Of a DNA stretch of 64,000 bases, positions 4,568 through 62,983 are shown piece by piece (the stretch's first letter is position 1; each line of letters begins with the position of its first letter). Where the stretch lies: positions 1 through 64,000 of the forward strand of contig VYFG01000147.1 of the NCBI GenBank assembly GCA_009842505.1, read 5' to 3'. The notes beneath the pieces were generated by a model. The model had not been told where the DNA came from. It ran no database searches and saw only the letters and a list, made by a program, of their open reading frames with translations. The position numbers and the translations under genes were made by a program. The DNA is from Gammaproteobacteria bacterium (GTDB lineage Bacteria > Pseudomonadota > Gammaproteobacteria > Arenicellales > Poriferihabitantaceae).

Positions 4568-6739
4568 ATGCAATTATCTGTTTTAAATAGATATTACATA
4601 TCTTCCATCCTGGGGATTGCACTCCTTCTTGGGATCATCGGCAGTGCGCCGGTGTTCGCCGAGATCGCTTCGCTGGAAGATACCGACATTCCTGTCAGCA
4701 CCGAGAAACAGCAAAGGACGCTCAAGCTCATCAACTACCTGATCGACAAGTCGCACTACCGCTCGGTGGAGCTTGACGATGCGTTCTCGGAGAGGGTCCT
4801 TGAGTCGTATCTTGAGCAACTGGACCCCGGCAAGAGCTTTTTCCTGGATGCGGATATCGAGCAGTTTTCCCGTCTCCGGTTCCAGTTCGATGACTTCATC
4901 CGCCAGGGATCCCTGAAGCCGGCCTTCGCCATTTTCAGCATCTTCCGGACCAGGGTCGACCAACGCGTGGGATATGCACTGGAACGGCTCGGCGAACCTT
5001 TCGATTTCGGCATCCACGAGGACCACGTGCTGGACCGGGAAGATCTGCCCTGGGCGGCGGACGTCGGCGAAATGGACGAAATCTGGCGCAAGCGCATCAA
5101 GAACGACATCCTCAGCCTTCGACTGACAGGCAAGAACGAGGGCGAGATTCTGGAAACCCTTGACCGCCGCTACACCCACATCGCCCGGAGAACCCGGCAA
5201 TTCAAGTCCGATGACATTTTCCAGACGTTTACCAACGCCTATGTCAGTTCCATCGAACCCCACACGAGTTATTTCTCCCCCCGGGCCACCGAGAACTTCA
5301 AAATCAACATGCGGCTCTCCCTCGAAGGGATCGGTGCTGTCCTGCAGACGGACAACGAGTACACGCTGGTGCGGCGCGTGGTGCCGGGCGGACCTGCGGA
5401 CCTTGGCGGCGGGCTCAAGGCCGAGGACCGTATCGTGGGCGTGGGTCAGGGCGATGAGGACCTGGTGGACGTGATCGGCTGGAGACTGGATGACGTGGTC
5501 GGGCTGATCCGCGGCCCGAAGAATTCCACCGTGCGGCTGGAAGTCCTGCCCGGAGAATCCGGACTGCACGGTGAAACCGAGATCATCTCCATCGTGCGCG
5601 ATGAAATCCGACTGGAGGAACAGGCGGCAAGAAAGAAAGTTCTGGAAGTGGACAGCGAAGGTAAAAGCGCCAGGATCGGCTTGATCCAGCTGCCTTCCTT
5701 CTACGTGGATTTCGATGCCATGCACGGCGGGGACCCGGAGTACAGGAGCACTACCCGGGACGTGCGCCGCCTGCTGGAGGAGTTCCGCCGGGACGATATC
5801 GACGGCCTGGTCATCGACCTGCGCGGAAACGGTGGGGGAGCCCTTTCGGAGGCGATCGCCCTGACCGGACTGTTCATCCGCCAGGGCCCGGTGGTCCAGG
5901 TGGAAAATTCAGGCGGCAAGATCCACGTCGATCGTGACCCCGACCCCGAAATTGTCTACAAGGGTCCATTGGCGGTACTGGTGGACGGATTCAGCGCCTC
6001 CGCCTCGGAAATCTTCGCGGGAGCCATACAGGATTATCACCGCGGCATCATCATCGGCGAACCCACCTTCGGCAAGGGTACGGTGCAGAACCTGATCAAC
6101 CTGAACCGGTTTTCGAACAGCAACGATGACCTCGGGCAGCTCAAGGTCACCATTGCGCAGTTCTTCCGTGTCAACGGCGAAAGCACACAGTACCGCGGCG
6201 TCACGCCTGACCTCGTGTGGACCACTGCCGGGACCGAATTCGGCGAGCGCATCTATGACAATGCCATTCCGTGGCGACACATCCGCGAAGCCCTCTACGT
6301 CCCTTTCGGCTATTCGAACGGAAGCAGCGAGATGGTCCTCGGCATGTTGCGGGAACGGCACCTAGAGCGCATCGAGCATGATCCGGAGTTCGACTACTTC
6401 AGCGAGATTGCACGCATCAACCAGGAGCAACGCGACCTCAAGAGCGTTTCCCTGCACGAGGTGACCCGGCAGACAGATCTAAGACGCCTGGATGACCTTC
6501 GTCTTGATCTGGAGAACAAGCGAAGGAATGCGCTTGGCAAGCAGCCCTTCGAGGACGTCGACGCACTGGAACAATTCGACCTGGCCGAGCAACGCCGGCC
6601 CGAGTCGGAACGGGAGCCGGATATGTTCCTGAGAGAATCCGTCAGGATCCTCAGTGACTACATCTATTTCTCCCGCCTGTATCAGGATGCGGACAACAAC
6701 AACCTGGCCAAGCAACTGGACATACGCCTGGGTAACTGA
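4568..6739 (+). CDS. prc: carboxy-terminal processing (tail-specific) protease
   Basis: Prc is a periplasmic protease that trims or degrades proteins from nonpolar C-termini. The 723-residue product starts with a hydrophobic export signal (about residues 10-32), followed by a helical N-terminal domain, a PDZ domain (about 245-335) and an S41 protease domain. The Ser-Lys dyad is visible as Ser478 in FSASASE and Lys503 in PTFGKGT, 25 residues apart as in the E. coli enzyme. A helical C-terminal domain follows, rich in Arg and Glu. It stands alone with its own upstream region containing two palindromes. In related bacteria Prc acts on murein hydrolase regulators and, in some, on anti-sigma factors; the rpoE operon is 4.3 kb downstream. 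Confidence 0.95.
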   Translation: MQLSVLNRYYISSILGIALLLGIIGSAPVFAEIASLEDTDIPVSTEKQQRTLKLINYLIDKSHYRSVELDDAFSERVLESYLEQLDPGKSFFLDADIEQFSRLRFQFDDFIRQGSLKPAFAIFSIFRTRVDQRVGYALERLGEPFDFGIHEDHVLDREDLPWAADVGEMDEIWRKRIKNDILSLRLTGKNEGEILETLDRRYTHIARRTRQFKSDDIFQTFTNAYVSSIEPHTSYFSPRATENFKINMRLSLEGIGAVLQTDNEYTLVRRVVPGGPADLGGGLKAEDRIVGVGQGDEDLVDVIGWRLDDVVGLIRGPKNSTVRLEVLPGESGLHGETEIISIVRDEIRLEEQAARKKVLEVDSEGKSARIGLIQLPSFYVDFDAMHGGDPEYRSTTRDVRRLLEEFRRDDIDGLVIDLRGNGGGALSEAIALTGLFIRQGPVVQVENSGGKIHVDRDPDPEIVYKGPLAVLVDGFSASASEIFAGAIQDYHRGIIIGEPTFGKGTVQNLINLNRFSNSNDDLGQLKVTIAQFFRVNGESTQYRGVTPDLVWTTAGTEFGERIYDNAIPWRHIREALYVPFGYSNGSSEMVLGMLRERHLERIEHDPEFDYFSEIARINQEQRDLKSVSLHEVTRQTDLRRLDDLRLDLENKRRNALGKQPFEDVDALEQFDLAEQRRPESEREPDMFLRESVRILSDYIYFSRLYQDADNNNLAKQLDIRLGN

Positions 6740-6868: not shown

Positions 6869-8149
6869 GTGAAATTCACCAATTTCGCCAAACAGTTCGA
6901 TCCGGACAGCGGAATCCTACAGCTCATGAGCGACCTGGGAGGAGTCGACCCGCACAAGGGCCCAATCTCCATGCTGGGAGGCGGCAACCCCGCGATGATC
7001 CCGGGGATGGAGCGTGCCTACCGCAGGGAAATGAACCTGCTGCTGGAGAACGGAAGGTCCTTCGAGTCGATGCTGGGCGCCTACGATGCCCCAGTGGGAA
7101 ACCTTGCATTCATCGAAGCCCTGTCGGGACTGCTCTCGGAACAGTATGGATGGCCCGTGAACGCGCGCAACATCGCCGTGACCAACGGAAGCCAGTCGAG
7201 TTTCTCGGTCCTGTTCAACCTGTTCGGGGGCCAGGTCGGAGACAGCCGCTTTCAACGCATCCTGTTTCCACTGACTCCGGAATACATCGGATACAGCGAT
7301 GTCGGCCTAGGCGACCGGTCCATATTCACGTCGAATCTTCCGCAGATCGAATACCGTGGTGACAGGGGTTTCAAGTACAAGGTGGACCTTGACCGCCTCG
7401 ATCCGGGGGAGGACATCGGTGCCATCTGCCTTTCCCGGCCGACCAATCCCACCGGCAACGTGGTCACGAACCGGGAGCTGGATGTGATGAGGAAACTGGC
7501 CGCCGAACGGGGTATCCCCCTCATCCTGGACTGTGCCTATGGGCAACCGTTTCCGGATATCGTTTTCACCCCTGCCGAGCCCGTCTGGGACAGGAACATC
7601 ATTCTCTGTCTGAGCCTGTCCAAACTGGGACTTCCGGGCGTCAGGACCGGCATCGTGATCGCCGATGAACCGGTGATCGAACTGCTGACCGGCGCCAACG
7701 CCATATTCAGCCTGGCGCCGGGACGATTCGGACCCACGCTGGTGTCCGGTATCGTGAAATCCGGCGAAATCCTCAAACTGTGCCGGGAAGTGGTGAGACC
7801 CTGGTACCGCGAGCGCTCGCAGCTTGCCATCGACATCGCCAACGACCTGATGGCAGACATTCCCCTCAGGATCCATTTGTCCGAAGGCGCCATATTTCTC
7901 TGGTTCTGGTTCGAGGGACTGCCCATCAGCAGCGAAACACTCTACCGCCGGCTGAAATCCCGTGGCGTCTACGTCATTGCGGGTCACCACTTCTTCCCCG
8001 GGATCGAATGCCAGTGGCGCCACATGCACGAATGCATCCGGGTCAGCTATGCTGCGCCGGAAGAAGACCTGCGTCGCGGCCTTGCGGTGATTTCGGAAGA
8101 GGTCCGGATTGCCTACGATGACCAGAACAGTAAAATCAGTGCACAGTAG
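6869..8149 (+). CDS. avtA: valine--pyruvate transaminase
   Basis: AvtA is a PLP-dependent class I/II aminotransferase that exchanges amino groups between valine or alanine and their keto acids. The 426-residue protein carries the diagnostic SMLGGGNPAMIPGMER segment near the N-terminus, the substrate loop SRPTNPTGN and the PLP lysine Lys252 in LSLSKLGLPG. It begins with GTG at 6869, preceded by AAGGA eight bases upstream. It lies 15 bases before the 2-phosphoglycerate kinase-like gene, so the two are probably co-transcribed; a metabolic reason for the pairing is not obvious. Confidence 0.93.
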   Translation: MKFTNFAKQFDPDSGILQLMSDLGGVDPHKGPISMLGGGNPAMIPGMERAYRREMNLLLENGRSFESMLGAYDAPVGNLAFIEALSGLLSEQYGWPVNARNIAVTNGSQSSFSVLFNLFGGQVGDSRFQRILFPLTPEYIGYSDVGLGDRSIFTSNLPQIEYRGDRGFKYKVDLDRLDPGEDIGAICLSRPTNPTGNVVTNRELDVMRKLAAERGIPLILDCAYGQPFPDIVFTPAEPVWDRNIILCLSLSKLGLPGVRTGIVIADEPVIELLTGANAIFSLAPGRFGPTLVSGIVKSGEILKLCREVVRPWYRERSQLAIDIANDLMADIPLRIHLSEGAIFLWFWFEGLPISSETLYRRLKSRGVYVIAGHHFFPGIECQWRHMHECIRVSYAAPEEDLRRGLAVISEEVRIAYDDQNSKISAQ

Positions 8150-8164
8150 AATGAGCCCCCGACC

Positions 8165-9355
8165 GTGTCAAAGCTGATTGTCATCGACGAAACCGCGGAT
8201 ACCCGGATCCCGTTTCTTCGCGGCATGCTGACCAAGTCCCTGCAGCGGTCGGGACTGGAATTCGTGGACGCATACCGGCTGGCCTCCGAAATCCGCGAGG
8301 ATCTGGACGAACTCGACACCGTGACCACCGGTGACCTGCGCCAGCGGATCGCCGACGCCCTGGAGGAGGATTATCCGGACGTCGTTCTGCGTCGCTACCA
8401 GAAACAGACACCCTATACCGAACCCATCGAGGTGGTTGACGAGAGCGGCCAGGAACAGCCCTTCTCGAGGGGGACATTCTCCAAGCGGCTGATGGGTTGC
8501 GGCATGCCAATGGACCTGTACGGGACGGTGACCAGGGAAATCCACGACTATCTGATCGACCATCAGATCCGCAAGGTGACCACACGGGAACTCATCGCCC
8601 TTACCTATCGGTCCTTGCGGACCAACGCCACCCAGAGATCCGCCGACCAGTACCTGATCTGGTGCGACTTCAACCGCAAGGGCACTCCGCTCATCATCCT
8701 TATCGGCGGGGTGCCCGGTAGCGGCAAGAGCACCATCGCCACCGAGCTGGCCGGCCGGCTTTCCATTGTCAGGACACAGTCCACCGATATGCTGCGGGAA
8801 GTGATGCGTGCCCTGATCCCGAAGCGCGTCTCGCCTTCGCTGCACGAATCCTCCTTCAACGCGGGGAAGGTGCAGTACCGGTCCGCCATGAGAAAAACCA
8901 AGAATCTCGACCTGCTCATCGGGGGATACCAGACGCAAAGCGACATGGTTGCAGTGGCCTGCGAGTCCGTATTGAGCCGCGCGGTGAACGAGCGGGTTTC
9001 CCTGATCCTCGAAGGGGTCCACATGCGCCCGGGACTGTTCAAACGGTTCGACAAGACTGTCGATGCCGTGGTGGTTCCGGTAATCCTCGCGGTGCTCCAG
9101 CAAAAACGCCTCAAGGAAAACTTACGCGGCCGTGCGGGGGAGAAACGGGCGGCCAAGCGGTACCTGGATCATTTCGACGAGATCTGGCAACTCCAGACGG
9201 CCATCCTGTCCGATGCGGACGCCGCGGATATTGAAATCGTGGACGCCGTCGACATTGACGAATCGGTAACCGAAATATGCAAGATGGTGACCGACACCAT
9301 AGCCGTTCGCTACAAGGGCAAGATCAAGGCCCTGCGCAGCCAGTACGAGGTCTGA
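8165..9355 (+). CDS. 2-phosphoglycerate kinase-like protein with tandem ATP-cone domains
   Basis: The C-terminal half resembles archaeal 2-phosphoglycerate kinase, which makes 2,3-bisphosphoglycerate from 2-phosphoglycerate and ATP. A Walker A loop GVPGSGKST lies at residues 182-190, followed by a Q-S-T-D-M segment. The N-terminal half looks like two consecutive ATP-cone modules (about residues 1-82 and 88-168), each with an F-x-R/K-G-x-(L/F)-x-K-x-L pattern, so activity may be gated by ATP. The start is a GTG at 8165. It follows avtA by 15 bases and converges with ppx. No cyclic 2,3-bisphosphoglycerate synthetase is seen in the window, so the substrate in this bacterium is an inference. Confidence 0.78.
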   Translation: MSKLIVIDETADTRIPFLRGMLTKSLQRSGLEFVDAYRLASEIREDLDELDTVTTGDLRQRIADALEEDYPDVVLRRYQKQTPYTEPIEVVDESGQEQPFSRGTFSKRLMGCGMPMDLYGTVTREIHDYLIDHQIRKVTTRELIALTYRSLRTNATQRSADQYLIWCDFNRKGTPLIILIGGVPGSGKSTIATELAGRLSIVRTQSTDMLREVMRALIPKRVSPSLHESSFNAGKVQYRSAMRKTKNLDLLIGGYQTQSDMVAVACESVLSRAVNERVSLILEGVHMRPGLFKRFDKTVDAVVVPVILAVLQQKRLKENLRGRAGEKRAAKRYLDHFDEIWQLQTAILSDADAADIEIVDAVDIDESVTEICKMVTDTIAVRYKGKIKALRSQYEV

Positions 9356-9368
9356 CCCCGAAGAACGG

Positions 9369-10877
9369 TCAGGCCAGCCCGATTTCCAGCTCGAAACCCG
9401 CCTGGGCAAGAAAACCGGCCTCGGTTTCCAGGTCCATCATGGTCAGCGGGTGGTCTTCAGACCAGTCCTTCTCCAGTTCAAGCCTGAGCCGGTTTGCCGA
9501 AACCTCGAGATCCATGGACGGAATCGGGGCATCCGTACGTCCGCGATTGAACGCCAGGGCAAGACGCAGCAGAATGGCGGAATGAATCGCCTTATCCCTG
9601 AGCGGTTTGGGAACATTGCCAAACAGTTCCAGGGGAAACTTCTGACGATGACTGCGGACTAGAAGGGACAGCACCCGTTGCTGCTGACGGGAGAATCCGT
9701 CGATATCCGCGTTTTCAATGATATAGCCCCCGTGCTTGTGATTCTGGCTGAATGCGATGGTGGTGCCTATCTCATGCAGCAGGCAGGCCCAGGTCAGGAG
9801 CTTACGCCAGATGATTTCTTCAAGCTGCCAAGTCCGCGCCACCTGCACGAGCAGCCTGAGGCAGGTATTCTGGACACGGACGGCCTGATCCCTGTCCAGG
9901 TTGAATCTCGTGACCATCGCGTCAACCCCCTGGTCTCGTGAATCGCTGTTCCGCAGACGCCCGTTGAGGTCGTAAAGAACTCCTTCGCGAAGGGCACCGC
10001 TGGTACAGTCCAGTCGCTCCAGGGCCAAAGTCGAGAAGATCGCCGAGATAATGGCGACCCCCCCGGGAAAGACCGGCCGACGCTGCTCAGCCACCAGATC
10101 GAGTCGGTCGACATGTCCACGCTTCAGCAACCATCGCTCGATGCGCTCGAAGCCCTCCATGCCTACCCAGTCACGCTTGACCCCCAGTGCCCGGGAAAGG
10201 TCGTCCACCGCCCGGATGGTGCCGGAAGTGCCGACGACTTCTTCCCAGCCCTTGCGACGATATCGCTGGACGATGGGCTCCAGTTCCTGGCATACAGCCG
10301 CTTTTGCCCGCCCAAGTCGATCCGGGGTGATGAGCCCTTCCGGAAAATATTGCCGGCTCATGCTCACGCAACCAATGTACAAGGAATCCATCGTCACGGT
10401 ATCGTGACCCTGTCCGATGATCAGTTCCGTGCTGCTGCCCCCAATGTCGATGACCAGCCTGCGCCTACCGCTGATCTCCAGGCTGAATGCGGCCCCGAGG
10501 TATACCAGGCGCGCCTCCTCGTGGCCGGAGATGACGGAAATGTGGTGCCCGAGCGCATCCTCTGCCCGGCTGATGAATTCCGCGGAATTATGCGCCGCTC
10601 GGAACGTGTTCGTGCCCACCGCACGAACCTGGCTGGAGGGAATATCCCGCAGGCGCTGACTGAATCGCTGCAGGCAGTCCAGGGCTCTCAGTTGGGAGTC
10701 CTCACTCAGGTTTCCCGATTCGTCCAGGCCCGCATTGAGCCGGACCATCTCCTTGACCCGGTCAATGATCTGCAATCCGCCGGCAGCAACCTGCTCCGCG
10801 ATCACCATGTGGAAGCTGTTTGATCCCAGGTCAAGCGCAGCCAGGGTCTGTCCCGCGGCAGGTACTTGCTGGATCAT
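9369..10877 (-). CDS. ppx: exopolyphosphatase (Ppx/GppA family)
   Basis: This enzyme removes terminal phosphates from polyphosphate and may also hydrolyse pppGpp. The 502-residue protein has the actin-fold phosphate motif ALDLGSNSFHMVI near residue 14 and a second motif, LVIDIGGSSTELI, near residue 140. The C-terminal half has the HD-like helical domain with CLLHEIGTTI and NADIDGFSRQ. Length and architecture fit Ppx rather than a short GppA, although the two cannot be separated cleanly by eye. A class of polyphosphate kinase (ppk2) lies 9 kb away on the same strand. It ends 13 bases from the convergent kinase gene. Confidence 0.92.
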   Translation of the reverse strand: MIQQVPAAGQTLAALDLGSNSFHMVIAEQVAAGGLQIIDRVKEMVRLNAGLDESGNLSEDSQLRALDCLQRFSQRLRDIPSSQVRAVGTNTFRAAHNSAEFISRAEDALGHHISVISGHEEARLVYLGAAFSLEISGRRRLVIDIGGSSTELIIGQGHDTVTMDSLYIGCVSMSRQYFPEGLITPDRLGRAKAAVCQELEPIVQRYRRKGWEEVVGTSGTIRAVDDLSRALGVKRDWVGMEGFERIERWLLKRGHVDRLDLVAEQRRPVFPGGVAIISAIFSTLALERLDCTSGALREGVLYDLNGRLRNSDSRDQGVDAMVTRFNLDRDQAVRVQNTCLRLLVQVARTWQLEEIIWRKLLTWACLLHEIGTTIAFSQNHKHGGYIIENADIDGFSRQQQRVLSLLVRSHRQKFPLELFGNVPKPLRDKAIHSAILLRLALAFNRGRTDAPIPSMDLEVSANRLRLELEKDWSEDHPLTMMDLETEAGFLAQAGFELEIGLA

Positions 10878-19906: not shown

Positions 19907-20842
19907 TCACCTGCGCTGCTTCGGATGCAGGCTCTTGCCCAGGATATGGCGGCTGTTGCCGATCACATGCTCGCTGGTGGTTACCAGCAACGGGTCAGGA
20001 TCACCGACCACGGACGGGTCCTTGCCGTCATAATCCAGCGATGAAAGGAAATGCCGCATGCAGGCCAGTCGCGCCCGTTTCTTGTCGTTCGACTTCACGA
20101 TGACCCAGGGAGCATCCGCAGTGTCGGTATAGAAGAACATGGCCTCCTTGGCTTCCGTGTAATCTTCCCACTTGTCCAGGGACTGGACGTCGATCGGCGA
20201 AAGCTTCCACTGCTTCAGCGGATCTCCCTTCCTCGAGTCGAAGCGTGTCCTTTGTTCATCCCGCGTAACGGAGAACCAGTACTTGAAAAGCCGGATGCCC
20301 GCGCGTACCAGCATGCGCTCGATTTCAGGGCACTGGCGCATGAACTCCAGATACTCCATCGGGGAACAGAATTCCATCACCCGTTCCACTCCGGCCCGGT
20401 TGTACCATGACCGGTCGAACATGACGATCTCGCCCCCCGAGGGCAGATGGGTGATGTAACGCTGGAAATACCACTGCGATTTTTCCGCATCGGTGGGCTT
20501 TTGCAGTGCAATCACCCGTGCGTCCCTGGGATTCAGGTGTTCCATGAAGCGCTTGATGGTACCGCCCTTTCCTGCCGCGTCCCTGCCCTCGAACAGTATC
20601 AGGATCTTCTCCCCGGTGTCCTTGACCCATTTCTGTACTTTCAGCAACTCTACCTGCAGGGCTGCCTTTTCCTTCTCATAGGCCTTTGTGGGAATTCGGT
20701 CATTGTAGGGATACTGGCCGTTTTCAAATGCGCGAACCGCGTCGGAGCGGGTAGCTGCCTGTTTGAACCCGACCGTGTCCGCTGGCGGCGTGCTTTTCGG
20801 TTTTTCCTCGACAGTACGAGGGGAAGCGGTTTTCTGATCCAT
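19907..20842 (-). CDS. ppk2: polyphosphate kinase 2
   Basis: PPK2 transfers phosphate between polyphosphate and nucleoside diphosphates. The 311-residue protein has the Walker A motif LFEGRDAAGKGGTIKRF, the lid-region segment EKSQWYFQRYITHLPSGGEI and the Walker B-like FDRSWYNRAGVE. Single-domain length and these motifs fit the class I enzymes. Residues 1-45 are a poorly conserved polar tail. It is monocistronic; ppx lies about 9 kb away. Confidence 0.95.
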   Translation of the reverse strand: MDQKTASPRTVEEKPKSTPPADTVGFKQAATRSDAVRAFENGQYPYNDRIPTKAYEKEKAALQVELLKVQKWVKDTGEKILILFEGRDAAGKGGTIKRFMEHLNPRDARVIALQKPTDAEKSQWYFQRYITHLPSGGEIVMFDRSWYNRAGVERVMEFCSPMEYLEFMRQCPEIERMLVRAGIRLFKYWFSVTRDEQRTRFDSRKGDPLKQWKLSPIDVQSLDKWEDYTEAKEAMFFYTDTADAPWVIVKSNDKKRARLACMRHFLSSLDYDGKDPSVVGDPDPLLVTTSEHVIGNSRHILGKSLHPKQRR

Positions 20843-62158: not shown

Positions 62159-62983
62159 ATGGGGAAAAAAGATCTCACTCCACGAAAGGGAACCATCGCC
62201 TACACCGCGGACAGGTATGCCTGTTACGAGGAAGCGGTCCAGTGTGTCGAATCGGAGATCGATTTTGTCGACGACACCTACAACGCCATTCGGGGAAGGC
62301 GGGCCAGGTTCCTCCGCGAAGATTTCTGCGGCACGGGAAACACCAGCTGCGAGTGGGTTCGCCGCAGAAAAACCAATATCGCCACCGGTCTTGATCTGGA
62401 CCAGAGTGTTCTCGACTGGGGTCTGAAGAACAAGGTGGGGAGTCTGAGCGCCGAGCAGCGCAGCCGGATCGTCCTGCTCAGGCAGGACGTCATGGAGGCG
62501 GACTGCGAACCCGCTGACGTGATTCTTGCCATGAATTTCAGCTATCAGCTGTTCAAGACCCGCGACCGGCTACGCGAGTATTTCCGCAAGGCGCGCGAGG
62601 GACTCAGGGACGACGGCATACTGTTCATTGATTCCTACGGCGGCCATGATTCCTACAAGGAGGTCAAGGAAAAAACCAAACACAAAAATTTCACCTACTA
62701 CTGGCATCAGAAGAAGTTCAACCCCATCACGGGGGACATGCTGTGCCATATCCATTTCCGCTTCAGGGACAGGTCCTGGCTGAGGAATGCCTTCACCTAT
62801 GACTGGCGCATGTGGACCCTGCCGGAACTGCAGGAAGTCCTGTCCGAAGCCGGCTTCAGCAGCGTGCAGGTATACTGGGAAGGCACGGATGAGGAAACCG
62901 GTGAGGGAAACGGTGAATATTTCCCCACCAGCCGGGGGGAGGACGACCCGAGCTGGATCGTCTATGTCGTCAGCGAGAAATGA
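62159..62983 (+). CDS. class I SAM-dependent methyltransferase
   Basis: The 274-residue protein has a methyltransferase fold with motif I LREDFCGTGNTSCEW (about residues 52-66), an acidic loop GLDLDQSVLDWG and a post-motif segment ADVILAMNFSYQLF. The C-terminal part has FTYDWRMWTLPELQEVLSEA and a Tyr/Trp-rich beta region. The family appears in many proteobacteria but its substrate is unknown to me. It is a single gene divergent from sixA. Confidence 0.82.
   Translation: MGKKDLTPRKGTIAYTADRYACYEEAVQCVESEIDFVDDTYNAIRGRRARFLREDFCGTGNTSCEWVRRRKTNIATGLDLDQSVLDWGLKNKVGSLSAEQRSRIVLLRQDVMEADCEPADVILAMNFSYQLFKTRDRLREYFRKAREGLRDDGILFIDSYGGHDSYKEVKEKTKHKNFTYYWHQKKFNPITGDMLCHIHFRFRDRSWLRNAFTYDWRMWTLPELQEVLSEAGFSSVQVYWEGTDEETGEGNGEYFPTSRGEDDPSWIVYVVSEK

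Follow-up and report, generated by a model that had tools for sequence, protein, structure and literature searches.

The stretch of DNA analysed here, called the window throughout (64,000 nt, from the gammaproteobacterial genome G000), carries a gene for a 396-aa protein in which two predicted ATP-cones precede a P-loop kinase domain resembling archaeal 2-phosphoglycerate kinase (2PGK). The features of this gene and of its surroundings are as follows:

4568..6739, + strand: prc, tail-specific protease, upstream of the kinase gene
6869..8149, + strand: avtA, valine-pyruvate aminotransferase (NF006964, 557 bits, cut-off 467)
8165..9355, + strand: coding sequence, GTG start, tandem ATP-cones and 2PGK-like P-loop kinase, 396 aa
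8165..8416, + strand: ATP-cone 1, residues 1-84 (PF03477, conservation, model)
8420..8683, + strand: ATP-cone 2, residues 86-173 (profile match to cone 1, model, structural alignment)
8675..9334, + strand: kinase domain, residues about 171-390 (NF003259 and NF008994 matches)
8705..8731, + strand: P-loop GGVPGSGKS, residues 181-189 (alignment of 24 sequences)
8780..8809, + strand: STDMLREVMR, residues 206-215, kept within the tandem-cone group
9011..9031, + strand: EGVHMRP, residues 283-289, conserved kinase motif
9369..10877, - strand: ppx/gppA, exopolyphosphatase family (PF02541, 5.2e-69), convergent with the kinase gene
19907..20842, - strand: PPK2-family polyphosphate kinase (61% identical to one PPK2 seed, of two exceeding NCBIfam cut-offs)

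The open reading frame at 8165-9355 very probably represents a genuine gene: the sequence is conserved, and most homologues begin at the position of its GTG, with MSKL, MAKL or a similar sequence.

Kinase domain and tandem ATP-cones

The original prediction of a 2PGK-like kinase agrees with the profile searches, in which the best-scoring models for this domain were those of 2PGK, though under their cut-offs. The 2PGK model NF003259 aligned residues 91-385 (the kinase and cone 2) to its positions 8-298 of 306 with 268.7 bits (curated cut-off 343), and cone 1 gave a second stretch of the same model; the arrangement typical of NF003259, a P-loop kinase domain immediately preceded by an ATP-cone, is thus present in the window protein. 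The model of mevalonate-3-phosphate 5-kinase (NF008996) was matched below its cut-off as well (58.1 bits versus 250). Across 24 aligned sequences, G181, G182, G187, K188, and S189 of the P-loop are invariant. Judging by these alignments the window kinase is a relative of archaeal 2PGK, and in view of its sub-cut-off score it is named 2PGK-like. The archaeal enzyme (NF003259; Methanothermus fervidus type) shares with it the kinase and one ATP-cone directly before, whereas the window protein differs by an extra N-terminal cone, by that score and by coming from a genome in which no cyclic-2,3-diphosphoglycerate (cDPG) synthetase was found.

A closer likeness in layout is offered by NF008994 (PRK12337), compared by model only and presumably associated with Thermus/Deinococcus, which covered residues 10-387, i.e., both cones and the kinase, in a single stretch; it is longer than the window protein by 93 N-terminal positions and was matched with 240.1 bits, below its cut-off of 603. 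Because this model spans both cones together with the kinase, the tandem arrangement is probably not new. According to the available part of one comparative study, both Thermus and Deinococcus have COG2074, and the archaeal-type phosphoglycerate mutase (COG3635) is among the genes that they share with archaea (PMC1274311).

The presence of two cones, also claimed originally, is borne out by several lines of analysis. PF03477, the Pfam ATP-cone, matched residues 13-76 with 26.9 bits (gathering score 25.8), and was found with an E-value of 0.01 or better in all 24 aligned members; NF003259 was matched in the two stretches given above; and a cone 1 profile and a cone 2 profile, each built from 16 of the 24 sequences, aligned to each other in hhalign with an E-value of 3.3e-13 and a probability of 97.9. 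Because the full-length two-sequence model was of low quality in the kinase part (mean pLDDT 47.3), residues 1-173 were modelled separately. In the resulting model (mean pLDDT 83.3, pTM 0.52), one and the same order of strands and helices occurs twice; being built on two sequences, it is support rather than proof. The top PDB match of this model in Foldseek was the dATP-bound class I ribonucleotide reductase (RNR) of Pseudomonas aeruginosa (5IM3, E-value 8e-6), with NrdR and further RNR cones coming next, and the only two matches with E < 0.001 both belonged to entry 5IM3. The alignment to 5IM3 over both cones (193 columns) had a low TM-score of 0.39 and an rmsd of 15.5, while the VIA structural alignment covered only residues 85-173 approximately (cone 2), to NrdR and RNR cones, with Z up to 12.2. 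In the model, then, cone 2 has the ATP-cone fold.

Cone 1 is the better conserved of the two, with 10 positions kept in at least 95% of 49 sequences, versus 4 in cone 2, and with a nearly invariant PFLRG. The nucleotide-phosphate motif of classical ATP-cones, VxKRxG, is absent from both, i.e., no conserved Lys/Arg pair follows a Val in the 49 sequences; the NrdR cone of the same genome was left out of this comparison, its MAFFT placement on cone 1 being visibly poor. The allosteric control by nucleotides that had been proposed fared less well than the cones themselves: the two modules are present, but control rests on analogy, and as the Lys-Arg motif is missing from both cones, nucleotide gating of the kinase is put forward as a hypothesis by that analogy. 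The nearest comparison is P. aeruginosa NrdA (5IM3), which also has two consecutive ATP-cones and of which, in the accessible portion of the report, nucleotides are bound by the N-terminal cone only (PMC5794259), that is, by the counterpart of the better conserved cone here. It differs in carrying its cones on a ribonucleotide reductase, in a mutual cone arrangement that the model of the window protein does not reproduce, and in the motif that the window protein lacks.

Neighbourhood of the gene and its distribution

Two genes of polyphosphate metabolism, ppx and the PPK2 gene (10.5 kb downstream of the kinase gene, a matter of proximity only), are the only ones of the genes sought that the window contains; neither pst nor apgM occurs at the locus, and no pst/pho transport or regulator gene adjoins the kinase gene. 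In the family of the window's genome, ppx adjoins the kinase gene at 5 of 14 loci (four of the same genus and L055), and the order prc-avtA-ppx is kept in two kinase-less members (L050 and L051) and was not seen in two others (L049 and L052). With ppx beside the kinase gene at 5 of 14 loci and kept in L050 and L051, the link at this locus is weak when taken alone. Upstream of the genes of the locus, no PhoB box scored above shuffled sequences in a consensus scan, and since only L091 and L092 stood out among the 16 stretches scanned in this way (shuffle fractions 0.04 and 0.01, respectively), nothing is claimed from PhoB boxes. At 62159-62983 (+ strand), 53 kb from the kinase gene, the window also carries a methyltransferase-like gene 60% identical to one that adjoins the kinase gene in family f3.

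The distribution of the gene is patchy. The kinase was found in 23 of 60 genomes of relatives, G000 included, and in 18 of 369 genomes of a class sample, 15 of which have the tandem form (again including G000), five of them in two copies; in G266 the tandem form is in two pieces with a stop, and in three genomes of the sample the match is kinase-only and lies within a frame of 820-1019 aa. A sample of the window's phylum gave one match in 398 genomes, that of G000 alone, whilst nine of 296 Bacteroidota genomes matched, eight near full length and one (G864) kinase-only. A search of contigs with the single protein yielded one relative, L027. In the tree, the window protein clusters with its own genus, and the root is unsure because the sole outgroup is on a very long branch. 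A mobile origin was considered and rejected: there was no phage match and no viral contig, and the sole plasmid match was a 226-aa kinase-type open reading frame of Deinococcus sp. QL22.

Long proteins with a C-terminal 2PGK-like kinase (NCBIfam scan of L109) and without a visible cone were noted at three loci:

L109, 1320-3839, - strand: 839 aa
L108, 1822-4806, - strand: 994 aa
L111, 5693-8149, - strand: 818 aa

By eye, their N-terminal part is HAD-phosphatase-like, and the gene adjoining the one in L111 is PEP-synthase-like.

Phosphate genes and apgM beside the kinase genes

For the comparison of gene neighbourhoods, 41 kinase-gene regions, i.e., 40 of the window's class (its own region included) and L027, were searched with tblastn at fixed thresholds; the kinase-only fusions (L108, L109, and L111) and the kinase-less avtA regions (L049-L052) were left out. 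Controls, 40 regions totalling 528 kb in 21 of these genomes, were picked before looking and non-randomly; five were phosphoglycerate-mutase regions, and the others came from the start or the middle of contigs. At least one phosphate gene was present in 19 of the 41 kinase regions versus none of the 40 controls (Fisher p = 1.6e-7, ignoring the relatedness of regions that include close relatives and are not independent). Regions shorter than 5 kb numbered 6 of 41 and 6 of 40, respectively. Counted by family within the window's class, phosphate or polyphosphate genes lie beside the kinase gene or a few kb away in 10 of 14 families (p = 4e-8, relatedness ignored); family f153, whose sole match was PhoB-like (53%), was counted as negative here although it is within the 19 regions. 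The genes concerned are pst, phoU, phoBR, PPK2, ppx, and pit, and in f74 and one f164 copy they are about 3-5 kb from the kinase gene. In 22 of the 41 regions no phosphate gene was found, and families f3, f7, and f110 had none.

The same linkage was observed in a second phylum. At all eight tandem-cone loci of Bacteroidota (L027 and L170-L176, of which L172 closely resembles L174, and L027 is also counted in the 41 regions), pst genes adjoin the kinase gene or are one gene away, whereas phosphate genes occurred in none of 16 control regions (237 kb; one region under 5 kb). In five of these eight loci (L027, L170, L173, L175, and L176), the kinase gene and pst converge. Same-strand, operon-like clusters were found elsewhere, with the orders pst-phoU-kinase-apgM (L093), pst-phoU-kinase (L098 and L099), and kinase-apgM-pst-phoBR (L040).

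It should be stressed that the phosphate seed proteins were taken from the kinase regions themselves; they still found the PPK2 gene elsewhere in the window. The seeds for PstC, PstA, PhoB, PhoR, polyphosphate:AMP phosphotransferase, PPK2, and TIGR00153 had these as NCBIfam best hits over the cut-offs. PstB and PhoU exceeded theirs in one seed and were somewhat under in others, the exopolyphosphatase seed was just under (306.8 versus 307), and the PstS seed was named by eye. The Pit-type seed, matched weakly by the models of PitA (88 bits of 800) and sulfate permease (118 of 400), is a putative phosphate transporter, judged by its TIGR00153 neighbour. The recurrent phosphate and polyphosphate neighbours suggest a role of the kinase in phosphate management.

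Other neighbours were also recorded. A second paralogue group of the tandem-cone kinase adjoins CorC-like genes: in L102, L103, L104, and L105 (and L041), the kinase gene is close to a pair of them; L102-L104 each hold the second kinase copy of their genome, and in L041 and L104 a methyltransferase gene adjoins the kinase gene too. Near the pst-kinase cluster of four of the eight Bacteroidota loci, there are seemingly related proteins that are HD-domain-like by eye, the two scanned of which (L027 and L173) had no NCBIfam match:

L027, 902-1738: HD-domain-like protein
L173, 4532-5362: HD-domain-like protein
L175, 9889-10806: HD-domain-like protein
L176, 11125-12018: HD-domain-like protein

The second recurrent partner is apgM. 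Enzymes of the ApgM family convert 3-phosphoglycerate to 2-phosphoglycerate, the proposed substrate of the kinase. Among the 60 relatives, 12 have apgM (TIGR00306, at least 280 bits; 10 over the cut-off of 320, and the one of G016 shorter), and all 12 genes share a contig with the kinase gene and adjoin it, whereas none of the 37 kinase-less genomes has a match above 38 bits (p = 1e-6, relatedness ignored). Another of the 12, the apgM match at G029:C420 5493-6686 (+ strand), has an internal TAA, i.e., a broken gene or a sequencing error. Eleven of the 23 kinase carriers among the relatives, the window's whole genus included, are without apgM. A further set of 15 carriers, the genome of L027 and 14 of the class, includes five with apgM, in each case adjoining the kinase gene (with one small predicted open reading frame between in G407), and apgM is also found at the kinase locus of L171 (Bacteroidota).

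Proposed role and its alternatives

Setting inferred substrate, gating, and purpose beside the observed gene content and linkage, we give an even chance to the reading that the tandem-cone kinase of the 2PGK group belongs to a phosphate/polyphosphate homeostasis set, in which it most likely phosphorylates 2-phosphoglycerate with ATP to 2,3-bisphosphoglycerate. A mutase, ApgM where present and GpmI in the window's genome, would supply 2-phosphoglycerate from 3-phosphoglycerate, and the window-type kinase would turn it into 2,3-bisphosphoglycerate. The better conserved N-terminal cone may sense ATP or another nucleotide and switch the kinase, with cone 2 as a possible adaptor, as in P. aeruginosa NrdA, so that the cones would set kinase activity from the nucleotide pool. 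When ATP and phosphate are plentiful, the product, a small bisphosphorylated acid, would hold or signal phosphate alongside polyphosphate.

A different acceptor within this phosphate-linked setting, either a small acid or a phosphate ester other than 2-phosphoglycerate, is possible, if on the unlikely side. It is favoured by the score under the 2PGK cut-off, by the group-specific residues, and by the wider group taking in mevalonate-3-phosphate 5-kinase, whose model was matched as given above; the pairing of kinase and apgM across lineages speaks for 2-phosphoglycerate instead. Bearing on this point, a Bacteroidota genome (G864; L177, 7351-9792, - strand) has a cone-less 257-aa 2PGK-like kinase gene adjoining a cDPG synthetase gene, the product of which matches 8ORK (phmmer E-value 2.7e-128). 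This cDPG-linked kinase keeps 29 of the 39 kinase-domain positions that the tandem group conserves, a point in favour of the main reading, but since the other 10, including Q205, S206, T207, and M209, differ, the acceptor could differ as well.

The activity suggested for rice LPA1, phosphorylation of inositol monophosphate, is improbable here: the homology and the phosphorus phenotype reported for rice (PMC4844318, as far as its available text goes) argue for it, and against it ino1 (myo-inositol-1-phosphate synthase; PF07994, E-value 1e-10) was found in one of 60 relatives, a non-carrier, and not in G000, though scavenged inositol may serve as a source, and apgM points to phosphoglycerates. 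Very improbable is the synthesis of 2,3-bisphosphoglycerate only as a primer of the cofactor-dependent phosphoglycerate mutase GpmA; the product would be the same, and gpmA is present in seven of nine kinase carriers outside the window's family, where such priming may occur, but at E 1e-20 it was found neither in G000 nor in any of the 24 family members, and all 24 have a gpmI match (one partial). 2PGK is best known for a step to the thermoprotectant of hyperthermophilic methanogens, and a first step to such a cDPG solute has the homology and the kinase-synthetase pair of G864 on its side. This route is nevertheless barely credible for the window kinase, as the G864 synthetase query matched only G864 itself among 49 genomes, where the kinase is cone-less; the expectation that the gene is not paired with a cyclic 2,3-bisphosphoglycerate synthetase was confirmed, with no match in G000. 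Owing to the missing genes (gpmA, cDPG synthetase, and ino1), all three routes are disfavoured in the window's genome, and because that genome is 96.31% complete, the absences are strong but not absolute. In the available text of a paper of 2023, cDPG is called exclusive to hyperthermophilic methanogens (PMC10690619).

Least probable of all is a role in amino-acid metabolism with avtA, since the gene, although it precedes the kinase gene by 15 bp on the same strand and adjoins it at 13 of 14 loci of the family (at the 14th, L021, the contig starts 300 bp upstream of the kinase gene), is near-universal among relatives (53 of 60, kinase present or not), is not beside the kinase gene in other families, and is lacking altogether in two kinase carriers outside the family (G042 and G052). 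Of the pairing with avtA originally claimed, adjacency at the locus itself stands, but it is local to one family, and avtA is probably an incidental neighbour.

The new point is the genomic context, i.e., the recurrent phosphate and polyphosphate neighbours of the kinase gene in two phyla. In titles and abstract beginnings of the literature searched, with few subscription journals, a link between bacterial 2PGK and phosphate or polyphosphate was not found, and it may be in print elsewhere; papers naming both "2-phosphoglycerate kinase" and "polyphosphate" were, by title, on plants, plus rumen bacteria. Rice LPA1/OsPGK1, by the available description, is a reported 2PGK homologue with a proposed substrate, the overexpression of which raises seed phosphorus (PMC4844318); by analogy, and though it is a plant protein, this phenotype is an independent hint that the kinase group is tied to phosphate storage. 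More broadly, in a reading that we regard as unlikely, at least two bacterial phyla might run a phosphate-linked 2,3-bisphosphoglycerate module (apgM and the tandem-cone kinase) that stores or signals phosphate beside polyphosphate under the control of the ATP-cone pair, the seed-phosphorus role of plant LPA1 being a variant of the same chemistry. Through the recurrent tie to pst, pho, and polyphosphate genes in two phyla, the bacterial 2PGK branch acquires a testable role, and this tie could help to explain the change of seed phosphorus by rice LPA1.
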